A stretch of 64,000 nt of DNA from Paludibacteraceae bacterium (GTDB taxonomy: Bacteria; Bacteroidota; Bacteroidia; Bacteroidales; Paludibacteraceae): assembly GCA_017517845.1 (NCBI GenBank), contig JAFWXW010000006.1, forward strand, positions 1 to 64,000, given 5' to 3'. The stretch's first letter is position 1. Each line of letters begins with the position of its first letter. Shown here piece after piece: positions 4,704-30,011 of the stretch. The translations under genes were made by a program, and so were the position numbers. Below the pieces are notes generated by a model, which saw nothing but the letters and a program-made list of their open reading frames with translations, ran no database searches and was not told the origin of the DNA.

Positions 4704-7700
4704 ATGAAAACAATGATGATAAATAAGATATTAAGAGTTTTAGCGGTATTCTTTTTCTGCCTAATCACTTTCACCGCAGGAGCTGCGAATATTACTGAGG
4801 GTACTGTAATTTATTTAGATGTAACGGATTTTCCTAAAGTAAAACAGCAAATTGCTACAGGTGATAAATTGCAATTAATGATAGGTCGTAGTGACTATTC
4901 TGCTTGTTATTTAATGTCACAAGTTGCTGGTGTAGATAATTTATATGAAGTAACTATGCCTAAGTGGGAGAATTTTGATCAAATTGCTTTTATAACCGCA
5001 TCTTCAGTATGGGGTGGGGAGAATGGCGCTGGAGCAAAACCAGCAACTCGTTGTAAGTGGGGTACATCAAATACTGGATATATTGATATCTCTTCTGATA
5101 TTTCTGGCGATGCAACCTTTGCTTGTGTTTCTGAGAAACTAACAAGTGTTCGTTATGTAGCAGGGAATGGTTCAGAAAATAATCCTTGGTGTGATGGACA
5201 AAGTTGGAATACCGTTGGAAGCATGTTTGAGGTTCCTGGTTCTATTACATTTAAGTCTGTACCTGCTGGAACTTATGAATTTAAGATAACTAATGGAACA
5301 TGGAACAATGCGATTGGTTCAGATGCCTTAGATAAAGAAAATAGTACAAAAAATGATTGTAGATTTAAGGATTTAGGTGGTGATGGAAATGCAAAATTTA
5401 CAATTACTGAGTTGGCAGATATTACTATTGGATTCAAGGATTCTAAAATCACAGTTACTGCGTCATTTGCTACACCAATGTCCTATTCTTATGTTCTTAT
5501 GGGAATAGGTGGAGATTGGGATAATGGTGTTCCTTTAGAAGTTAATCCAAAAAATGATAATGAGTTGATGTTGTTAAATCAACCAATTGATAACAAAAAT
5601 GACGCTGTTAAGATTGTAAAACTTGATATATGTGGGAATAAAGTTGAGTATGAAGCAGATGTAGATGATTCTCCTTGTTTTGCAAAGGTTTCTCGCGATG
5701 ATAAAAACAACATTAAACTTCCTGATGGAGTCTATGATTTCTATTATAGAGATGGTGAAATCTACATCACACCTTCTGCGTCTAATGTTAAATACTACCT
5801 TATGGGTGTGGATACAGATGGTAATGGAGAAACAAGTGACAACTGGGAGGCTGATAGTAACTATGAGTTAACTCCAAACCCAGAACCTGGTAAAGAAAAT
5901 GAGTTAGTATTGTTAGGTGCTACAATACCTGCTGCAAACTCTGTGAAGATTGTAAAGAAAACACCTTGTGGTGATGAATTTTACGCAGATGTAAAACTTT
6001 CTTCTCCAGTGCCTTATTCTGGTGGTGGTACTGGTGATTACGCACCAAATATAGTTCTAGAAGCTGGTACCTACGATTTCTATTTCAATAAAGAATCAAG
6101 TAAAATTTATATTGGCGGTACGCTTGATAATGCAAAAGTTGTACATTTAGATCCAAAAGCAGAAGATGGAAGTGACTGGGAGTCAGACGGAGCTAAGATG
6201 GCTGTGCATTACAGAAATTCTGACACAGATAATGGTTGGGTAACTGCTGAAAAATGCAATACATACTATTTTGCTCAAATTCCAGAAGGATATACAGAAT
6301 ACTTCTGGGTGCGTATGAATCCAAATAGAACAGAAAATAGATGGAATAGTGATGGTGAAGAAGAAGGAACCAAACCTGTTTGGAATCAAAGTTCTGGCAT
6401 TAAGTATGATGCTCAAAAAACTCTAACCATAATGAAAGATATGGAGTGGGATTGTTACCAAACTGTTTATAGCGGTATATGTGGTGAAAACTTCGACAAC
6501 TTAAATTGTACATTCCCAGAGGCAGAAGATGATACAGTATTTGTTCATATCAACCAATTTGTAGAAAGCGACCCTTGTAACTATATATTTAGGTCGTTTG
6601 AACAAGCATTTGCAGTATTAAAAACCAATACAGACATTTGTACTTCTTCTACTACTACATTGGGAGGTCTTAAAGAGGATGTAATAGACTTTACCAAACA
6701 TGTTGTAATGTTGGTTCACTTTGGTCCTGCATATTACAGAGGCACTGAAAAAGTAGGTATGTCTGGCGGACATGTAGGCAATGCGCCAGTTATATTCTTC
6801 CGCAATATCAACCAAAATAGTGACAAACAACTTGTCGTGCGCACTGCAGACCCAAAAGGTAACCGTGCCGTGCTAGTACACCCTGTCATTCGTCGAAGCA
6901 GAAATATTGTGTTAGACAATTTAGATATTATCAGTGATAAAAACCTAAGAGACAATGCTTTAGATATAGATACTGGTAAAGGTGACGAAACATTGGAATA
7001 TACAGATGGCAATGATAGAAACTTCAATATTGTACCATTGCCAGTAGTACCTAGCAATATTACACTAAAAAATTGCTATGTAGAATCATACGGACGTAAT
7101 GGTATTCACATAGTGGGTATTAAGGGTCTTCATGTTGAAAACAACGAGTTCTATACAAAATATGATTTTACAGGCTCTCAAAGTGAGGATGAAAAACTTG
7201 ATGTAGTAGACTGGGGTGGAACCATTAAATTTATCAACTGTACAGATGTTAAATTCCTACGTAACAACTCAGAAGGTACACTAGCAACATCATTCTTTAT
7301 ACAAGGTTGTCAACGAATGCTTATTATGAATAACGTATTCTGGAATGAGAATAAAGTAGAAGTGCCAGGACTTTCAGGTACAGGTAGAACAGTGGCGAAT
7401 GTGCGTTTAGTAAATTATGTAGACGATCCAAACATTGCTAAGGCTGTTGATTTCCCTGTGAAGAATATTGGTGTTTATTACAATACATTCTTTATTAGAA
7501 GTAATGACAGTGAAAGTGCAAAAGATAGTTATGTTACTTTCGACTTCTTCCGCCTTGGTGGTTTAAAACAACCTGTAAGAGAAAATAATGCAGGAAATAA
7601 ATACTATGACCCCGAAACTATCCGTTTCCAGTACAACAACTGTTATAGTTACGATGCAGATATAAAGGGAAACAATGACGATGAAAACACTACTACTACT

Positions 7701-13540: not shown

Positions 13541-15973
13541 TTAAAAATCTGTCATCATATCTCCTCCCATGCTATCCATACCTACAGATGCGTCCATATT
13601 TGGTTGACTATTTCTGTTAGGACGTTTGCCTCCCATATTTCCAAAATTGTAAGATAGGGTAAGTCTGTAACTTCTTCCAGATGAGAGATTCCCGCTTTCT
13701 TCATGGAAGTTTTCACCCCATGTTTCCCTACTACTCTTGGAACGTGAATTAAGTACATCTCTAACAGTAAAAGTTAAATTTAGTGCTTTTTCTAGGAAAC
13801 TAGCCTTTAAACCTAAATCCATTCCATATCTATGACCCATAGAGCCTTGTGCTATTAATCTAGGAGAATTATAATATCCTGTAACTTGTGCAGATAGATT
13901 GCTTATAATCTTTACGTTAGCATTAATTCTGGCATTCCATGAGAATGTTTCTGTTTTGGATATATTATAGTCTGCATTTTCACCCAATTGATAATAATAT
14001 GCAGTGGCAGTGGTGGTTAAATCTAGATAATTGTTGAATAATCTGTTTTTGGCAGTAATGTCTATACCTGCACTTTGAGAGTGGTTTATATTATCCCAAG
14101 TGCTTTCCATTACACCATTGTCATTAAGTTTTTGTACTCTCTGGATTACATTTTCTGTGTATGAATAAAATGCTCCCACAGAAAGCGTGTGCATATCCCA
14201 TGTTTTAAGATAGTTAAATTCCAAGTTGTTAGAATATTCTGGGTCTATTAATGGGTTACCATAACTTATGTTGGTAGGGTCTGTTCTATCCACATGATTA
14301 TTAATAATCCAACCACGAGGTCTATTTATACGGCGAGTATAGTTAAGTTGAAGTTCGTTATCCTTTGGAAGTTGAAAAGATAGATATGCAGAAGGGAATA
14401 GTTGGAAGTAATCTCTTTTAACTTCATTTGCAGAAGTAAGAGTTTCTTCTGCCCTTAGTCCTACTTGCAGACCAAACCAATCCCATTTATTACCATAACT
14501 AGCGTATGCAGCATAAATTTGTTCGGTATAATCAAATGGATTGTATTGTTCCATATCTTCCACCATATTTTCGTCGAAACTACGGTCAATACTATTACTT
14601 GTTTTATATTCTGCTTTTAAACCTACTTCTAGTTTAGAATCTTTATTAAACTTCTTATAATAGTCTGCTTGTAATGAGAAGTTGTTATCATTACTTTTTG
14701 ATGTTTGGTAATCTTTGTTTTCTGTGATTTTGTTATCTATCTGGCTCCAGTTGTGATAATCACTTTTATTGTCTCTTATTGCACCAAAATAGTTGAAACT
14801 AGCAGAGAACTCTTCATTGTCTTTGTTGAAGATATGTTTATAATCAACAGCGGCATTGTAGAAACTCATAAGGCCCTCATTGCCAGTGGTTCTAATTCTG
14901 TATTGAGTGGTGTCAAGGTCTTGGTTTAATTGATAATAAAGTATCTTATTACTTGATTGATTTGCACCAACCATACCCATGCCGCTAATGCCAAAGTCAT
15001 TTTTTTCATCTATATGATAGGTGAAACCTGCTCTAAGGAAACCATTGGTATGGTTATTATTTCTGGTATTATATTGATTTAAATATGTGGTGTCTTGTGA
15101 AGCTGAAAATGAAGTTCTGTTGTTATAGCTTTCATTGTTTCTTAAGTTGTGTCTTGCAGAAGCATTTAGGAATACGTCCCATTTAGGGTCGCTATATGTG
15201 AAATTTAGACCTAAATTACCTCCTGGATAAGGATTCCCTTCTCTGTAATTGCCACCCAAAGATACACTGCCAAAGTAACCTCCTTTTCTGTTTTCTTTTA
15301 GAACTAGGTTTATAATACCCACAGAACCTTCTGGATTATATTTGGCAGATGGATTAGTAATAAGTTCTACCTTTTCTATAGTTTCAGCAGGTAACATTTC
15401 TAGAATTTGTCCTCTATCAGAACCAGAAAGTCCAGATGGTTTACCATTAATCCAGATTTCGACAGATGAGTTATTTCTAAGTGAAACATTGCCTTCTGTA
15501 TCCACTTCTACAGATGGAATATTTTCTAGTAGTTCTGAGGCAGATGCTCCGTCTGCTACTATGGTTTGTTCCACATTAAATACCTTTTTATCTATCTCTA
15601 GACTCATTCCAGATTTCTGACCAACCACTTGAATTTCTTCCATTCGCTTAACTTCTTCTTTAAGCACAATGCGTCCCATTTTTATTTCTTTTTCTTCTCC
15701 TGTTGCAAATCTCTTCTCGAAACTTTTGTACCCTATAAAAGAAGCTTTAAGCAGATATGTCCCTGCTGGAATGTCTATGTTAAATTCTCCGTCTATATCA
15801 GAAAATCCACCTGTGATAATTTTATTTCCACTATTGTCATAAATAGTGATATCTACATACTCAAAAGGTTTAAGATTGTTACCGTCTATCACTTTCCCGG
15901 TAACCAAAAAGTTTTGGGCGTAGCCTACCAAGCCCCCCAAAAACATGACTAAAGTAAAAATTAAGCGTTTCAT
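13541..15973 (-). CDS. TonB-dependent receptor family outer-membrane protein
   Basis: This 810-residue protein has a signal peptide (MKRLIFTLVMFLGGLVGYAQ), then a carboxypeptidase-regulatory-like beta sandwich (about residues 23-105; VTGKVIDGNNLKPFEYVDI), then a TonB plug domain (about 120-225; ASELLENIPSVEVD ... VELITNPSAKYNPEG), then a large beta-barrel of the OMP_b-brl_3 type. The C-terminus is extended and rich in Gly, Met and Asp. No SusD partner is adjacent, so it is not a classical polysaccharide-utilisation pair; the ligand is unknown. Energy would come from a TonB system such as the protein at 54936. Confidence 0.85.
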   Translation of the reverse strand: MKRLIFTLVMFLGGLVGYAQNFLVTGKVIDGNNLKPFEYVDITIYDNSGNKIITGGFSDIDGEFNIDIPAGTYLLKASFIGYKSFEKRFATGEEKEIKMGRIVLKEEVKRMEEIQVVGQKSGMSLEIDKKVFNVEQTIVADGASASELLENIPSVEVDTEGNVSLRNNSSVEIWINGKPSGLSGSDRGQILEMLPAETIEKVELITNPSAKYNPEGSVGIINLVLKENRKGGYFGSVSLGGNYREGNPYPGGNLGLNFTYSDPKWDVFLNASARHNLRNNESYNNRTSFSASQDTTYLNQYNTRNNNHTNGFLRAGFTYHIDEKNDFGISGMGMVGANQSSNKILYYQLNQDLDTTQYRIRTTGNEGLMSFYNAAVDYKHIFNKDNEEFSASFNYFGAIRDNKSDYHNWSQIDNKITENKDYQTSKSNDNNFSLQADYYKKFNKDSKLEVGLKAEYKTSNSIDRSFDENMVEDMEQYNPFDYTEQIYAAYASYGNKWDWFGLQVGLRAEETLTSANEVKRDYFQLFPSAYLSFQLPKDNELQLNYTRRINRPRGWIINNHVDRTDPTNISYGNPLIDPEYSNNLEFNYLKTWDMHTLSVGAFYSYTENVIQRVQKLNDNGVMESTWDNINHSQSAGIDITAKNRLFNNYLDLTTTATAYYYQLGENADYNISKTETFSWNARINANVKIISNLSAQVTGYYNSPRLIAQGSMGHRYGMDLGLKASFLEKALNLTFTVRDVLNSRSKSSRETWGENFHEESGNLSSGRSYRLTLSYNFGNMGGKRPNRNSQPNMDASVGMDSMGGDMMTDF

Positions 15974-27054: not shown

Positions 27055-28542
27055 TTATTTAAAAATTCTATCTATAATTTCCAATTTTGCTTGAGAAGGT
27101 TCTTCGTATGCATTACATGCTCTTAGATATTCTTTAAGCTCAGTAAAATCTGTTCCATACAAATTGTCACTAAACTTTTGTAATTTTACCATTACATTTA
27201 CGTATGCAGAAGGGTCTTTCTTACGTGTCAATTTTCTTAGAGCTAATATATAATCTTCTCTAAATACAGTTGGAACAATGATTCTTGTTTGCTCTGCTTT
27301 TACTAACTCAGCATTCATCATTATACGCGAAATTCTTCCATTACCATCGTTGAATGGGTGCACTTCGCTAATCATAAACATCATAAAAATAGCACGTGCA
27401 AATGGGTCTTTAAGTGCTGAATAGAATTTATATCCATAGTTTAATGTTCCTTTTACCAATCTATAATCCACAAATTCTGTATTCCCAGCTCTATTATTTC
27501 TTGTTTTAAAAATACCAGGTTCTAGATGTGGGCGACCTCCTAGAAGTATTGAATGTCTTGATTGTAAAATTGAATATAGTTCATCAATAGATGATGGAGT
27601 ACGGTTCATTTCGGCTCTATTAGATAGTACCTTAAATGTCCCTAATATGTCATGCGAGTCTTCGTCACGACGCGGAATTGGAATGCCAGAATCGACAATT
27701 TGTTTTGCTTCATCAATTTCAAATTCTGTACCTTCTATATAGTTTGAAAAATAACTTTCAAAGAAAGAGAAAAGTCTGAATGATTCTTCATCCTTATTGC
27801 GGTTTACTCTTTCTACAAAATATTCATCTTTAATAGCATGAAATAGTGCTTCAAATAATTCACCTCTTGTTTGGTCAAATGGCAAACCCACAGATAACGC
27901 TTTAGCAGATGGTGTTGTAAGAATATCAGAAGAATGAGTTGATAGCAACGCAGATATTATTTTGCAGATTCTTTCATACTCTTTTGGCATATTAAGTCTT
28001 TCTGAAACTTCTCTTAATTTATCTCTATACTCATTAAGTTTTTCTTCACCGCCTATAAGTAATATTTTTTCTAATTTATTTTCTATATCAGCAATAGGTA
28101 ATGATTTTGAATTTTCAGAATCTTTTCTTGCTATTTGCATATTTTCAAGTAACCACCTATACTCACTAGCAATATAAATGCCGTTGTATGGCAAGTCTCC
28201 TTCGTCTGCAGCAGGACCTTTTAAAAGATTTATAGTTATTCCTGGTAAATCTGTTACTTTCTTAGAATAAGTTGTTGTCAAGTAAAAATTACCTTCTGAT
28301 GTAGGACGCATTTCTTTTGCACTTCTATGACTTATTATTGCTTTAGGATAACGCCATACAAGAATATCAATAATATTTCTTCTTACAATATGTTCAAAAC
28401 TATCAATTGTATTAGAAGTATATAAACGCGGTGCTATTTTACGTAGTTTACCTGCTTTCTCCAACAATGATATTTGTCTTGAAACATTAGAATCAGAAGA
28501 TGCAAATATTATTTCCTTTGTAATATCTACTTTGCTATTCAT
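27055..28542 (-). CDS. Fic family protein with N-terminal winged-helix (AbiEi-like) domain
   Basis: I chose the ATG at 28542 (MNSKVDITKEI), giving about 495 residues. The N-terminus (NVSRQISLLEKAGKLRKIAPRLY ... AIISHRSAKEM) resembles the winged-helix part of AbiEi-type antitoxins. The Fic core carries the full catalytic motif HPFNDGNGR at about residues 395-403, so AMP or another nucleoside-monophosphate transfer is possible. No separate antitoxin gene adjoins. The wing and Fic domains in one chain, together with the five-copy array upstream, suggest autoregulation by the N-terminal domain (inference). The target is unknown. Confidence 0.85.
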   Translation of the reverse strand: MNSKVDITKEIIFASSDSNVSRQISLLEKAGKLRKIAPRLYTSNTIDSFEHIVRRNIIDILVWRYPKAIISHRSAKEMRPTSEGNFYLTTTYSKKVTDLPGITINLLKGPAADEGDLPYNGIYIASEYRWLLENMQIARKDSENSKSLPIADIENKLEKILLIGGEEKLNEYRDKLREVSERLNMPKEYERICKIISALLSTHSSDILTTPSAKALSVGLPFDQTRGELFEALFHAIKDEYFVERVNRNKDEESFRLFSFFESYFSNYIEGTEFEIDEAKQIVDSGIPIPRRDEDSHDILGTFKVLSNRAEMNRTPSSIDELYSILQSRHSILLGGRPHLEPGIFKTRNNRAGNTEFVDYRLVKGTLNYGYKFYSALKDPFARAIFMMFMISEVHPFNDGNGRISRIMMNAELVKAEQTRIIVPTVFREDYILALRKLTRKKDPSAYVNVMVKLQKFSDNLYGTDFTELKEYLRACNAYEEPSQAKLEIIDRIFK

Positions 28543-28566
28543 ACAAATTTTATAGATTAACTTTTG

Positions 28567-28574
28567 CAAATATA
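28567..28574 (-). promoter_or_regulatory. -7 element of the Fic gene
   Basis: On the minus strand these bases read TATATTTG, matching TAnnTTTG, 24 bases before the chosen ATG. No TTTG is found at the usual -33 position; the repeat array begins two bases upstream. Confidence 0.6.
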
Positions 28575-28575
28575 C

Positions 28576-28729
28576 AAATTTTGTCGATTATAAATGTTAA
28601 ATTGATAAATTTTGTAGATTATAAACATTCATTCTACAAATTTTGTAGATTAAAACTCCCCAAAATACCCAAAACCTACAAATTTTGTCGATTATAAATG
28701 TTAAAATGATAAATTTTGTCGATTATAAA
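28576..28729. repeat. Five-copy helically phased operator array of the Fic promoter
   Basis: The 19-bp motif AAATTTTGT[C/A]GATTATAAA begins at 28576, 28607, 28638 (slightly degenerate), 28680 and 28711. Spacings are 31, 31, 42 and 31 bases, close to three, three, four and three helical turns. The array fills most of the gap between the divergent Fic and esterase genes and abuts the Fic -7 box. I infer cooperative binding of a regulator on one DNA face. The remainder of the 323-base gap holds the esterase promoter. Confidence 0.8.
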
Positions 28730-28780
28730 CCTTTATTATATGAAATTTGATAATTATTTATTGTTTTTCGATAAAATTAT

Positions 28781-28810
28781 TTTGTTTTTCAAGAAAAGTG
28801 TGTATATTTG
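28781..28810 (+). promoter_or_regulatory. Promoter of the secreted esterase
   Basis: TATATTTG at 28803-28810 is a full -7 match. TTTG at 28781-28784 lies 18 bases upstream, slightly shorter than the usual 19-21. The leader before the ATG is about 50 bases. Confidence 0.55.
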
Positions 28811-28865
28811 CATCGTGAAACTAATTAGTTCGTAATGTGAAGTATAAACTAACAAATCTAAAACT

Positions 28866-30011
28866 ATGAAAAAATTTAAAGTATTAACTATTTTGCTGTT
28901 TGCATTGATTGTATCATCAACATCTTTGGCACAACAAGTTGCAAATGTTGAAACTAAAACATTTAAATCTAGATATTTCTCTTTTGATAGAGAAGTATTA
29001 ATATACACTCCAGAAAATTATAATGAAGCAACTCAAAGTGAGTATGATGTTATTTATGTATTTGATGCACAAGCACGTTCTTTTTTTGATTTGGTGCATG
29101 CTTTGTTGCATTACAATGTGCAAGAACAAAATGACCAAAATTTTATAGTTGTTGGAGTAGTTTCACCCTTTATGCCAGAAATAGAATATCATAGGAATAA
29201 TGATTTTCTGCCTATCCCAGAGTACACAACTCTGTCAACACCCTATTACGGCAAATCTAATGAGTTTAAGAAATTTATCAAAGAAGAATTGATGCCATAT
29301 ATTAATACACATTATCAAACTTCTGGACATACATTGGCAATAGGCCATTCTTTAGGAGCTTCATTTGCTTTAGACGTTTTGGTTACTGATGAACTTTTTG
29401 ATGACTATATAGCAATATCTCCAAATTTTGCTTGGGATAAAGAAAGATTTGCTAGAGGTTTTATGCAATATGATTTTAATAATAAAAAACCACGTTATAT
29501 ATACTTATCTATGGCAAACGAATCAGAAATGACAGGATGGCCAACAGAATGGCGTCTAGCTTGGAGAAAGGTGAAGAAGTTTGTGGAAACCTCTCAATTG
29601 CCTCAATACGTTCAAATTAAAATTTCTGAATTTCCTGCATTAGAACATAATAAAACAATATTACCAGCCTTGTTAGAGGCATTATCAGATTATGTAAAAT
29701 ATCGTCAGAGCCCTATTATTTCAGATTCAACCTTATATCCTGTTCACATAGAATTATCTGGGGCTTCTCTTCGTGGCGATGTATATATAACAGGAAGTCA
29801 GTCGTCTCTATGTAATTGGAATCCACAAGGAGTAAAGATGAAACAATTAAATGACTCAACATATAGTATTGATTTACAATTACAATTACCTGTAGATTTT
29901 AAATTTACACAAGGAAGCTGGGAAAATCAAATTTGGATAGAAAATGGTAATGCTGGAAATCAACGCATATCACTGCCTAGCAAAACCACGAAATATTATA
30001 AAACGTTTTAA
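28866..30011 (+). CDS. Secreted alpha/beta-hydrolase esterase with C-terminal starch-binding-like domain
   Basis: This 381-residue protein has a signal peptide (MKKFKVLTILLFALIV). The esterase-D-type hydrolase fold spans about residues 30-285: VIYVFDAQARSFFD, the nucleophile elbow GHSLGASFA (GxSxG), and a late LEHNKT that probably supplies the histidine. Residues about 290-381 resemble a CBM20/CBM48-type beta sandwich (VYITGSQSSLCNWNP, DFKFTQGSWEN). It probably hydrolyses an ester in the periplasm or at the surface; the substrate is unknown. It is separated from the following operon by 64 bases. Confidence 0.8.
   Translation: MKKFKVLTILLFALIVSSTSLAQQVANVETKTFKSRYFSFDREVLIYTPENYNEATQSEYDVIYVFDAQARSFFDLVHALLHYNVQEQNDQNFIVVGVVSPFMPEIEYHRNNDFLPIPEYTTLSTPYYGKSNEFKKFIKEELMPYINTHYQTSGHTLAIGHSLGASFALDVLVTDELFDDYIAISPNFAWDKERFARGFMQYDFNNKKPRYIYLSMANESEMTGWPTEWRLAWRKVKKFVETSQLPQYVQIKISEFPALEHNKTILPALLEALSDYVKYRQSPIISDSTLYPVHIELSGASLRGDVYITGSQSSLCNWNPQGVKMKQLNDSTYSIDLQLQLPVDFKFTQGSWENQIWIENGNAGNQRISLPSKTTKYYKTF

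Follow-up and report, generated by a model that had tools for sequence, protein, structure and literature searches.

The window analysed here is a 64,000-nucleotide stretch from a Paludibacteraceae bacterium (contig JAFWXW010000006.1, positions 1 to 64,000), and our subject is a fic gene within it together with the array of short repeats that lies in front of this gene. The fic gene occupies positions 27055–28542 on the minus strand and encodes a protein of 495 amino acids. The reading frame also offers a TTG start at 28569; the ATG at 28542–28540 is preferred because homologous proteins align from it. In the C-terminal third of the protein lies the Fic catalytic motif HPFNDGNGR (27334–27360, minus strand), conserved as HPFxDGNGR in all 20 rows of a family alignment. 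All 20 aligned proteins also match PF02661, the window protein with 43.7 bits against a cut-off of 24, so that it possesses both the HPFx(D/E)GN(G/K)R motif and the domain by which Fic/FIDO proteins are recognised. The Fic part resembles FICD-type structures by sequence (best E 7.4e-11). About 129 residues ahead of the catalytic motif, on the same chain, is the sequence SNYIEG (27730–27747, minus strand; SNxIEG in 20/20 rows). This has the form of the inhibitory motif (S/T)xxxE(G/N), whose position N-terminal to the Fic core we take to be what defines the class II Fic proteins, in which an alpha helix bearing the motif is expected to touch the active site. A first-pass annotation of the window had remarked that the gene has no partner antitoxin, and an invariant class II-type self-inhibitory motif is consistent with this. 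The organism's own genome has no further full-length protein of the kind, the two other Fic matches there having E values of 2e-4 and 0.003.

Residues 1–50 (28393–28542, minus strand) form the presumed DNA-binding region, a winged helix-turn-helix (wHTH), as judged from the alignment and from a weak match to AbiEi. The N-terminus of the window protein matches AbiEi in PADLOC with E=0.027, and the relative at locus L119 matches AbiEi_4 (PF13338) with E=3e-4 and 21.2 bits, the curated cut-off being 25. The AbiEi-like winged helix proposed in the first-pass annotation thus survives as a faint N-terminal resemblance, one that reaches no curated cut-off, and there is a weak indication that the N-terminus is a winged helix of AbiEi type.

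Upstream of the gene lies an array of operator-like repeats, all of them on the minus strand. Five copies had been claimed previously and all five are present, with plus-strand starts at 28574, 28605, 28636, 28678 and 28709, steps of 31, 31, 42 and 31 bp, and at most two mismatches each to the pattern ACAAATTTTGTMGATTATAAA, for which shuffled versions of the window gave matches in 0/100 cases. In our numbering these are copies 2 (28574–28593, TTATAATCGACAAAATTTGT), 3 (28605–28624), 4 (28636–28655), 5 (28678–28697, reached by the 42 bp step, equal to four helical turns) and 6 (28709–28728). A sixth, overlooked in the first-pass annotation, is copy 1 (28543–28562, AGTTAATCTATAAAATTTGT), which lies 31 bp from copy 2, ends at the ATG and has a single mismatch in its 14-base core. 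There is also a weak copy 7 (28740–28759), 31 bp past copy 6 and identical to the best copy at 12/20 positions. Counted from the far end, the seven copies are separated by 31, 31, 42, 31, 31 and 31 bp. The array is therefore real and larger than had been thought. Its copies are direct repeats: a search for inverted repeats in 28300–29000 yielded a single pair, joining two TATATTTGCA boxes. That pair is an 18-nucleotide inverted repeat (28565–28582 and 28795–28812) and is located at the divergent promoters of fic and of an esterase-like gene at 28866.

Reading along the fic strand, copies 7 to 2 come first, followed by the octamer TATATTTG (28567–28574, minus strand), copy 1 and the ATG. We take TATATTTG to be a Bacteroidota-type −7 box, that of the presumed fic promoter, and copy 2 adjoins it, as the first-pass annotation had said of the array. 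In the relatives described below, a strict TANNTTTG occurs in 16/35 Bacteroidota loci 8–34 nucleotides (nt) past the point where the middle operator starts, at 16–21 nt in 15 of these, and is lacking from that zone in the other 19/35. Matches to a sigma-70-type promoter near fic are at the level of shuffled sequence (11 against 11.6 expected). In 41/48 homologues the last operator extends over the region of the start codon, and in some relatives it enters the coding start, as in proteins beginning MEKN.., MENN.. or MKTSLKNTT..; operator sequence placed in this way may constrain the sequence of the protein.

Homologous loci were collected from four sources. A family sample of 300 genomes had a match in 21, with 23 places, all of which were used; a phylum sample of 395 genomes had a match in 42, and 29 of its 43 places were taken besides the window's own. 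A collection of genome contigs supplied a further 44 loci, and plasmids supplied ten regions (21 plasmid records match, of which 11 were taken and L116, matching only from residue 266, was excluded). From the resulting 106 loci (L009–L075 and L077–L115), among which several from two genome collections were the same gene, we dropped ten whose match starts beyond residue 35, and a filter at 85% protein identity reduced the remaining 96 to 48 homologues from Bacteroidota and Proteobacteria. Copies were fitted at each locus with lags of 30–33 and 40–43 bp only, which makes a Rayleigh statistic drawn from the fit circular; the evidence for phasing is instead a spectrum in which the lag was left open from 12 to 89 bp and Stouffer z values were taken over the 48 homologues.

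In this free-lag spectrum, peaks appear at 31 bp (z 23.2, flanked by shoulders at 30 and 32), 41 bp (16.9), 72 bp (11.4) and 62 bp (6.3), whilst the half-turn lags of 36 and 46 bp are depleted (z −3.5 and −2.1). Repeat pairs matching at 12/16 positions at a lag of 36 or 46 bp were seen in 0% of the 48 loci, as whole-turn phasing demands. By contrast, pairs at lag 31 with at least 12/16 identities occur in 71% of homologue loci and in 0% of random places, and a fit score of at least 38 is reached by 38/48 homologue loci as against 0/240 random places in the same loci. Compared with 60 shuffles per locus, the three-copy fit has p <= 0.05 in 47/48 homologues; the exception, L077 (p 0.083), still has lag-31 repeats. 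No relatives were found among phage records at E 1e-10, and a scan of IMG/VR with a single sequence confirmed none; an alignment query of IMG/VR returned 15 relatives (L117–L131) on contigs classed as viral. Eight of these 15 loci, all outside the earlier set, were run, and seven of the eight score at least 43, with lags of [31,41] or [31,31] and new words, L118 scoring 36. As this set includes five near copies, about four lineages are represented.

What varies amongst the relatives is the repeated word and the number of copies. The word is AATCGACAAAATTTGT in the window and TAATGGAAAAAATT, AATCTAAAAAAATCC, TTATTCTGAAAAATTTGT, CCAAAATTTGTA, AAAAACACGACA, TTATGCGAAACTGAGAGACA, AAAATTAACAAAAGTTTGCA or GCACTTTTGTTGAC in relatives, and the 48 homologues have three fitted copies in 35 cases, four in seven, five in three, six in two and seven in one. 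The last step is either 31 or 41 bp, one turn apart: three turns followed by four make up the final two steps in 34 loci, two steps of three turns each do so in 12, and four turns followed by three in two. A maximum-likelihood tree built from 47 proteins implies that the last step has changed between three and four turns at least seven times, with six of the changes forced by well-supported branches. A phased array before fic is thus a family-wide design in which the geometry is kept and the word is not. The first-pass annotation had asked for phasing to be kept whilst copy number varied, and had named homologues lacking an array as evidence that would count against it; the former is what the 48 homologues and the IMG/VR relatives display, and the near-universal fit described above runs counter to the latter. 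Three loci (L037, L043 and L049) have, besides the usual array, another of three copies further upstream, roughly 230 to 150 bp ahead of the fic start. Sixteen loci of one family of the window's phylum (f19; L090–L105) have upstream regions with a CGACA-like word like that of the Massilia and Variovorax relatives; the five of them included in the tree group with the Massilia and Variovorax proteins, which are from Proteobacteria, and together these features suggest transfer between phyla.

The array and the gene form one unit. At L032, whose protein is 89% identical to that of the window, the 12 best tblastx pieces shared with the window all fall within the gene and its array, and the flanking genes differ. 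From plasmid to plasmid, too, the annotated neighbours of fic change, as seen in those of Bacteroides, Hymenobacter, Sphingorhabdus, Alteromonas, Novosphingobium and Variovorax (two Hymenobacter plasmids share theirs, and two plasmid regions list no genes). As array and gene are kept together across phyla amid differing neighbours, the constant partner of the array is fic itself. Nor do the window's own genome, that of L034 and the Variovorax plasmid have the word chiefly at other places, an outcome that the first-pass annotation had counted as refuting. In the window's own genome (1.68 Mb, 81% complete) the core pattern with at most one mismatch has 19 matches, of which six are the window array and the others are scattered, and no second cluster of the word is found. 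In the 3.5 Mb genome of L034 all seven pattern matches lie before or just after fic, and on the 801 kb Variovorax plasmid both exact word matches are at fic; the genome of L062 has one match to the Variovorax word. The sole other exact core match in the window's own genome (contig C29) is at the coding start of an Obg-like GTPase, so named by reading its translation, and was taken as chance.

L034 also has a second array bearing the same word as that at fic (4720–4835 of that locus; three matches to the pattern at steps of 31 bp, with one more recognised by reading). It occupies a gap some 240–360 bp past the fic stop, ahead of an acyl-CoA ligase-like gene, and is perhaps a duplicated promoter array.

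These observations bear on what binds the repeats, and very probably the fic gene's own protein does so and switches fic off. We consider it highly likely that fic encodes a single-gene wHTH-Fic protein which binds cooperatively along one face of the DNA and thereby represses the promoter of its own gene. In this model the N-terminal winged helix would bind every copy of the direct repeat. Since the copies are 31 or 41–42 bp apart, three or four turns, protomers bound on the same face of the DNA could touch one another and so bind cooperatively; they would share one orientation, with head-to-tail contacts. The copy beside the −7 box would block RNA polymerase, the copy between the presumed transcription start and the ATG would block the start region, and the upstream copies may nucleate or reinforce assembly. 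The predicted outcome is a steep autorepression that keeps the level of the enzyme low. With SNYIEG acting as a built-in second brake, no antitoxin gene would be needed, and the whole would amount to a self-limiting Fic module, presumed to AMPylate proteins, within one gene.

Several points weigh against this interpretation or temper the figures given for it. No wHTH family exceeds its Pfam cut-off in the 20 aligned proteins. Distance between helix-turn-helix (HTH) regions correlates with distance between words when the Fic domain is corrected for (partial r 0.175, p 0.006, Mantel test), but the Fic domain keeps a partial correlation of its own (0.141, p 0.018), and as both track the word the signal of coevolution is weak and not exclusive to the HTH. 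Nine of the 48 loci score below 36, where the third copy may be misplaced, and some of the changes in the last step rest on such low-scoring fits. An earlier and coarser scan over 230 bp exceeded all 15 shuffles in only 41/57 loci. The loci share ancestry, so the z values overstate their independence, and the identity filter is imperfect for seven loci with partial translations. Finally, among Fic genes in general, 4/30 upstream regions reach a score of 38; this control comprised part of the matches, took the first in-frame ATG as a guessed start (L181 has none) and, like the DUF6088 control, used an anchor zone wider than that for the homologues.

The four general Fic loci that reach the score are L170, by way of a tandem tract, L179, L191 and L195; the last two score 41 and 42, with lags of 30/40 and 41/40. 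L179 (the same as L200) encodes a protein of 309 amino acids with an HTH of MerR/excisionase-like type as assigned by reading, and has a three-copy direct array with lags of 32/33 and 42 bp whose last copy is at the ATG. Near copies of it are L201–L204, and arrays were examined in L200, L201 and L203. A phased direct array reaching the ATG is thus common to this set and the window's family, whereas the type of HTH differs, and this hints that a different HTH, when joined to Fic, can also come to have phased operators. Amongst Fic relatives without the MerR-like HTH, L206, L207, L209 and L210 score 27–35 and L208 reaches 44 through a tandem tract, whilst L205, with an XRE-like HTH by reading, scores 36. 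In the DUF6088 control (23 of 30 loci, L163–L169 being excluded because their matches are partial or weak) 1/23 upstream regions reaches 38. Plasmids of Bacteroides fragilis (L106) and Hymenobacter sublimis (L107) also have a DUF6088 gene close to fic, that of L106 showing an AbiEi_4 match below the cut-off. A broader proposal, which we think unlikely, is that HTH-Fic enzymes with at least two types of HTH polymerise head to tail on such arrays, the polymer controlling both activity and transcription and the array serving as the antitoxin.

Other readings assign the array a different binder or purpose. Quite unlikely in our view is that an unlinked host regulator binds it and that fic belongs to a wider regulon: the sequence itself names no binder, but there is neither a second array in the window's own genome nor a second place on the Variovorax plasmid, and the word varies by lineage yet remains joined to the gene across phyla as neighbours change. 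We regard as very unlikely the idea that the array is a sink, in which the DNA would hold the Fic protein inactive, the element acting as antitoxin and its loss freeing the enzyme. Up to seven copies, more than a promoter block would be expected to call for, the additional array past fic in L034 and the presence of relatives on 21 plasmid records would all suit it; against this, the 35/48 loci with three fitted copies only offer few sites in relation to the likely numbers of protein molecules. That the repeats are an RNA antitoxin of type III (ToxIN-like), transcribed ahead of the toxin gene, seems extremely unlikely: tandem repeats do precede a toxin-like gene, but in the window every copy except one lies 5′ of the −7 box, so that most would not be transcribed from it, their spacing tracks helical turns with free sequence between copies, as for protein sites, and no relevant Rfam family was found, the one sub-threshold match, to a human long non-coding RNA, being inside a neighbouring gene.

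The genes beside fic in the window are AroQ-like and secreted esterase-like (named by reading, with no family search made). The array sits between the promoters of fic and the esterase-like gene and might touch both. The AroQ-like gene, again named by reading, is present in 8 of 16 genomes of the genus, the window's own included, and in the other seven (L133–L139) it has beside it, in place of fic, a homologue of part of window positions 14573–15718, and hence these genomes provide no clean empty site.

Autorepression by proteins of related architecture has been described. Passages on CccR of Yersinia pseudotuberculosis present it as an HTH-Fic protein that represses its own promoter from sites near −35/−10 with half sites 26 bp apart (PMC9755527). 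According to the same passages, CccR has a C-terminal HTH and one inverted repeat (10-N26-10), and a secreted effector is part of that account, whereas the window's family has 3–7 direct repeats; the window protein has its Fic motif in the C-terminal third, and its weak resemblance to AbiEi is at the N-terminus. AbiEi of the type IV system AbiE is, in the portions of the report consulted, an autorepressor with an N-terminal wHTH that covers −35, −10, +1 and the melted region from two sites (PMC3985639). Those sites are inverted 23-bp repeats 3 bp apart and the toxin AbiEii is encoded by a separate gene (PMC3985639), in contrast to the in-phase direct repeats of the window and an enzyme on the same chain, with AroQ-like and esterase-like genes as the neighbours. 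HTH-Fic fusions are mentioned in the Fido paper, in passages that describe no operators (PMC2686095). In the open literature searched, judged largely by titles and abstracts, we found no description of helically phased direct arrays before solo HTH-Fic genes. The nearest known autorepressors, the HTH-Fic protein CccR and the wHTH protein AbiEi, both act through inverted repeats; direct arrays of conserved geometry and variable sequence were not found described in that literature.

If the proposed circuit is correct, it would provide a testable regulatory logic for the widespread solo Fic proteins that have no apparent antitoxin gene. The relatives also offer dozens of candidate protein–operator pairs that have a fixed geometry but differing words and proteins. 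Such pairs would let sequence reveal both the recognition code of the DNA-binding domain and the role of phasing in cooperative repression.
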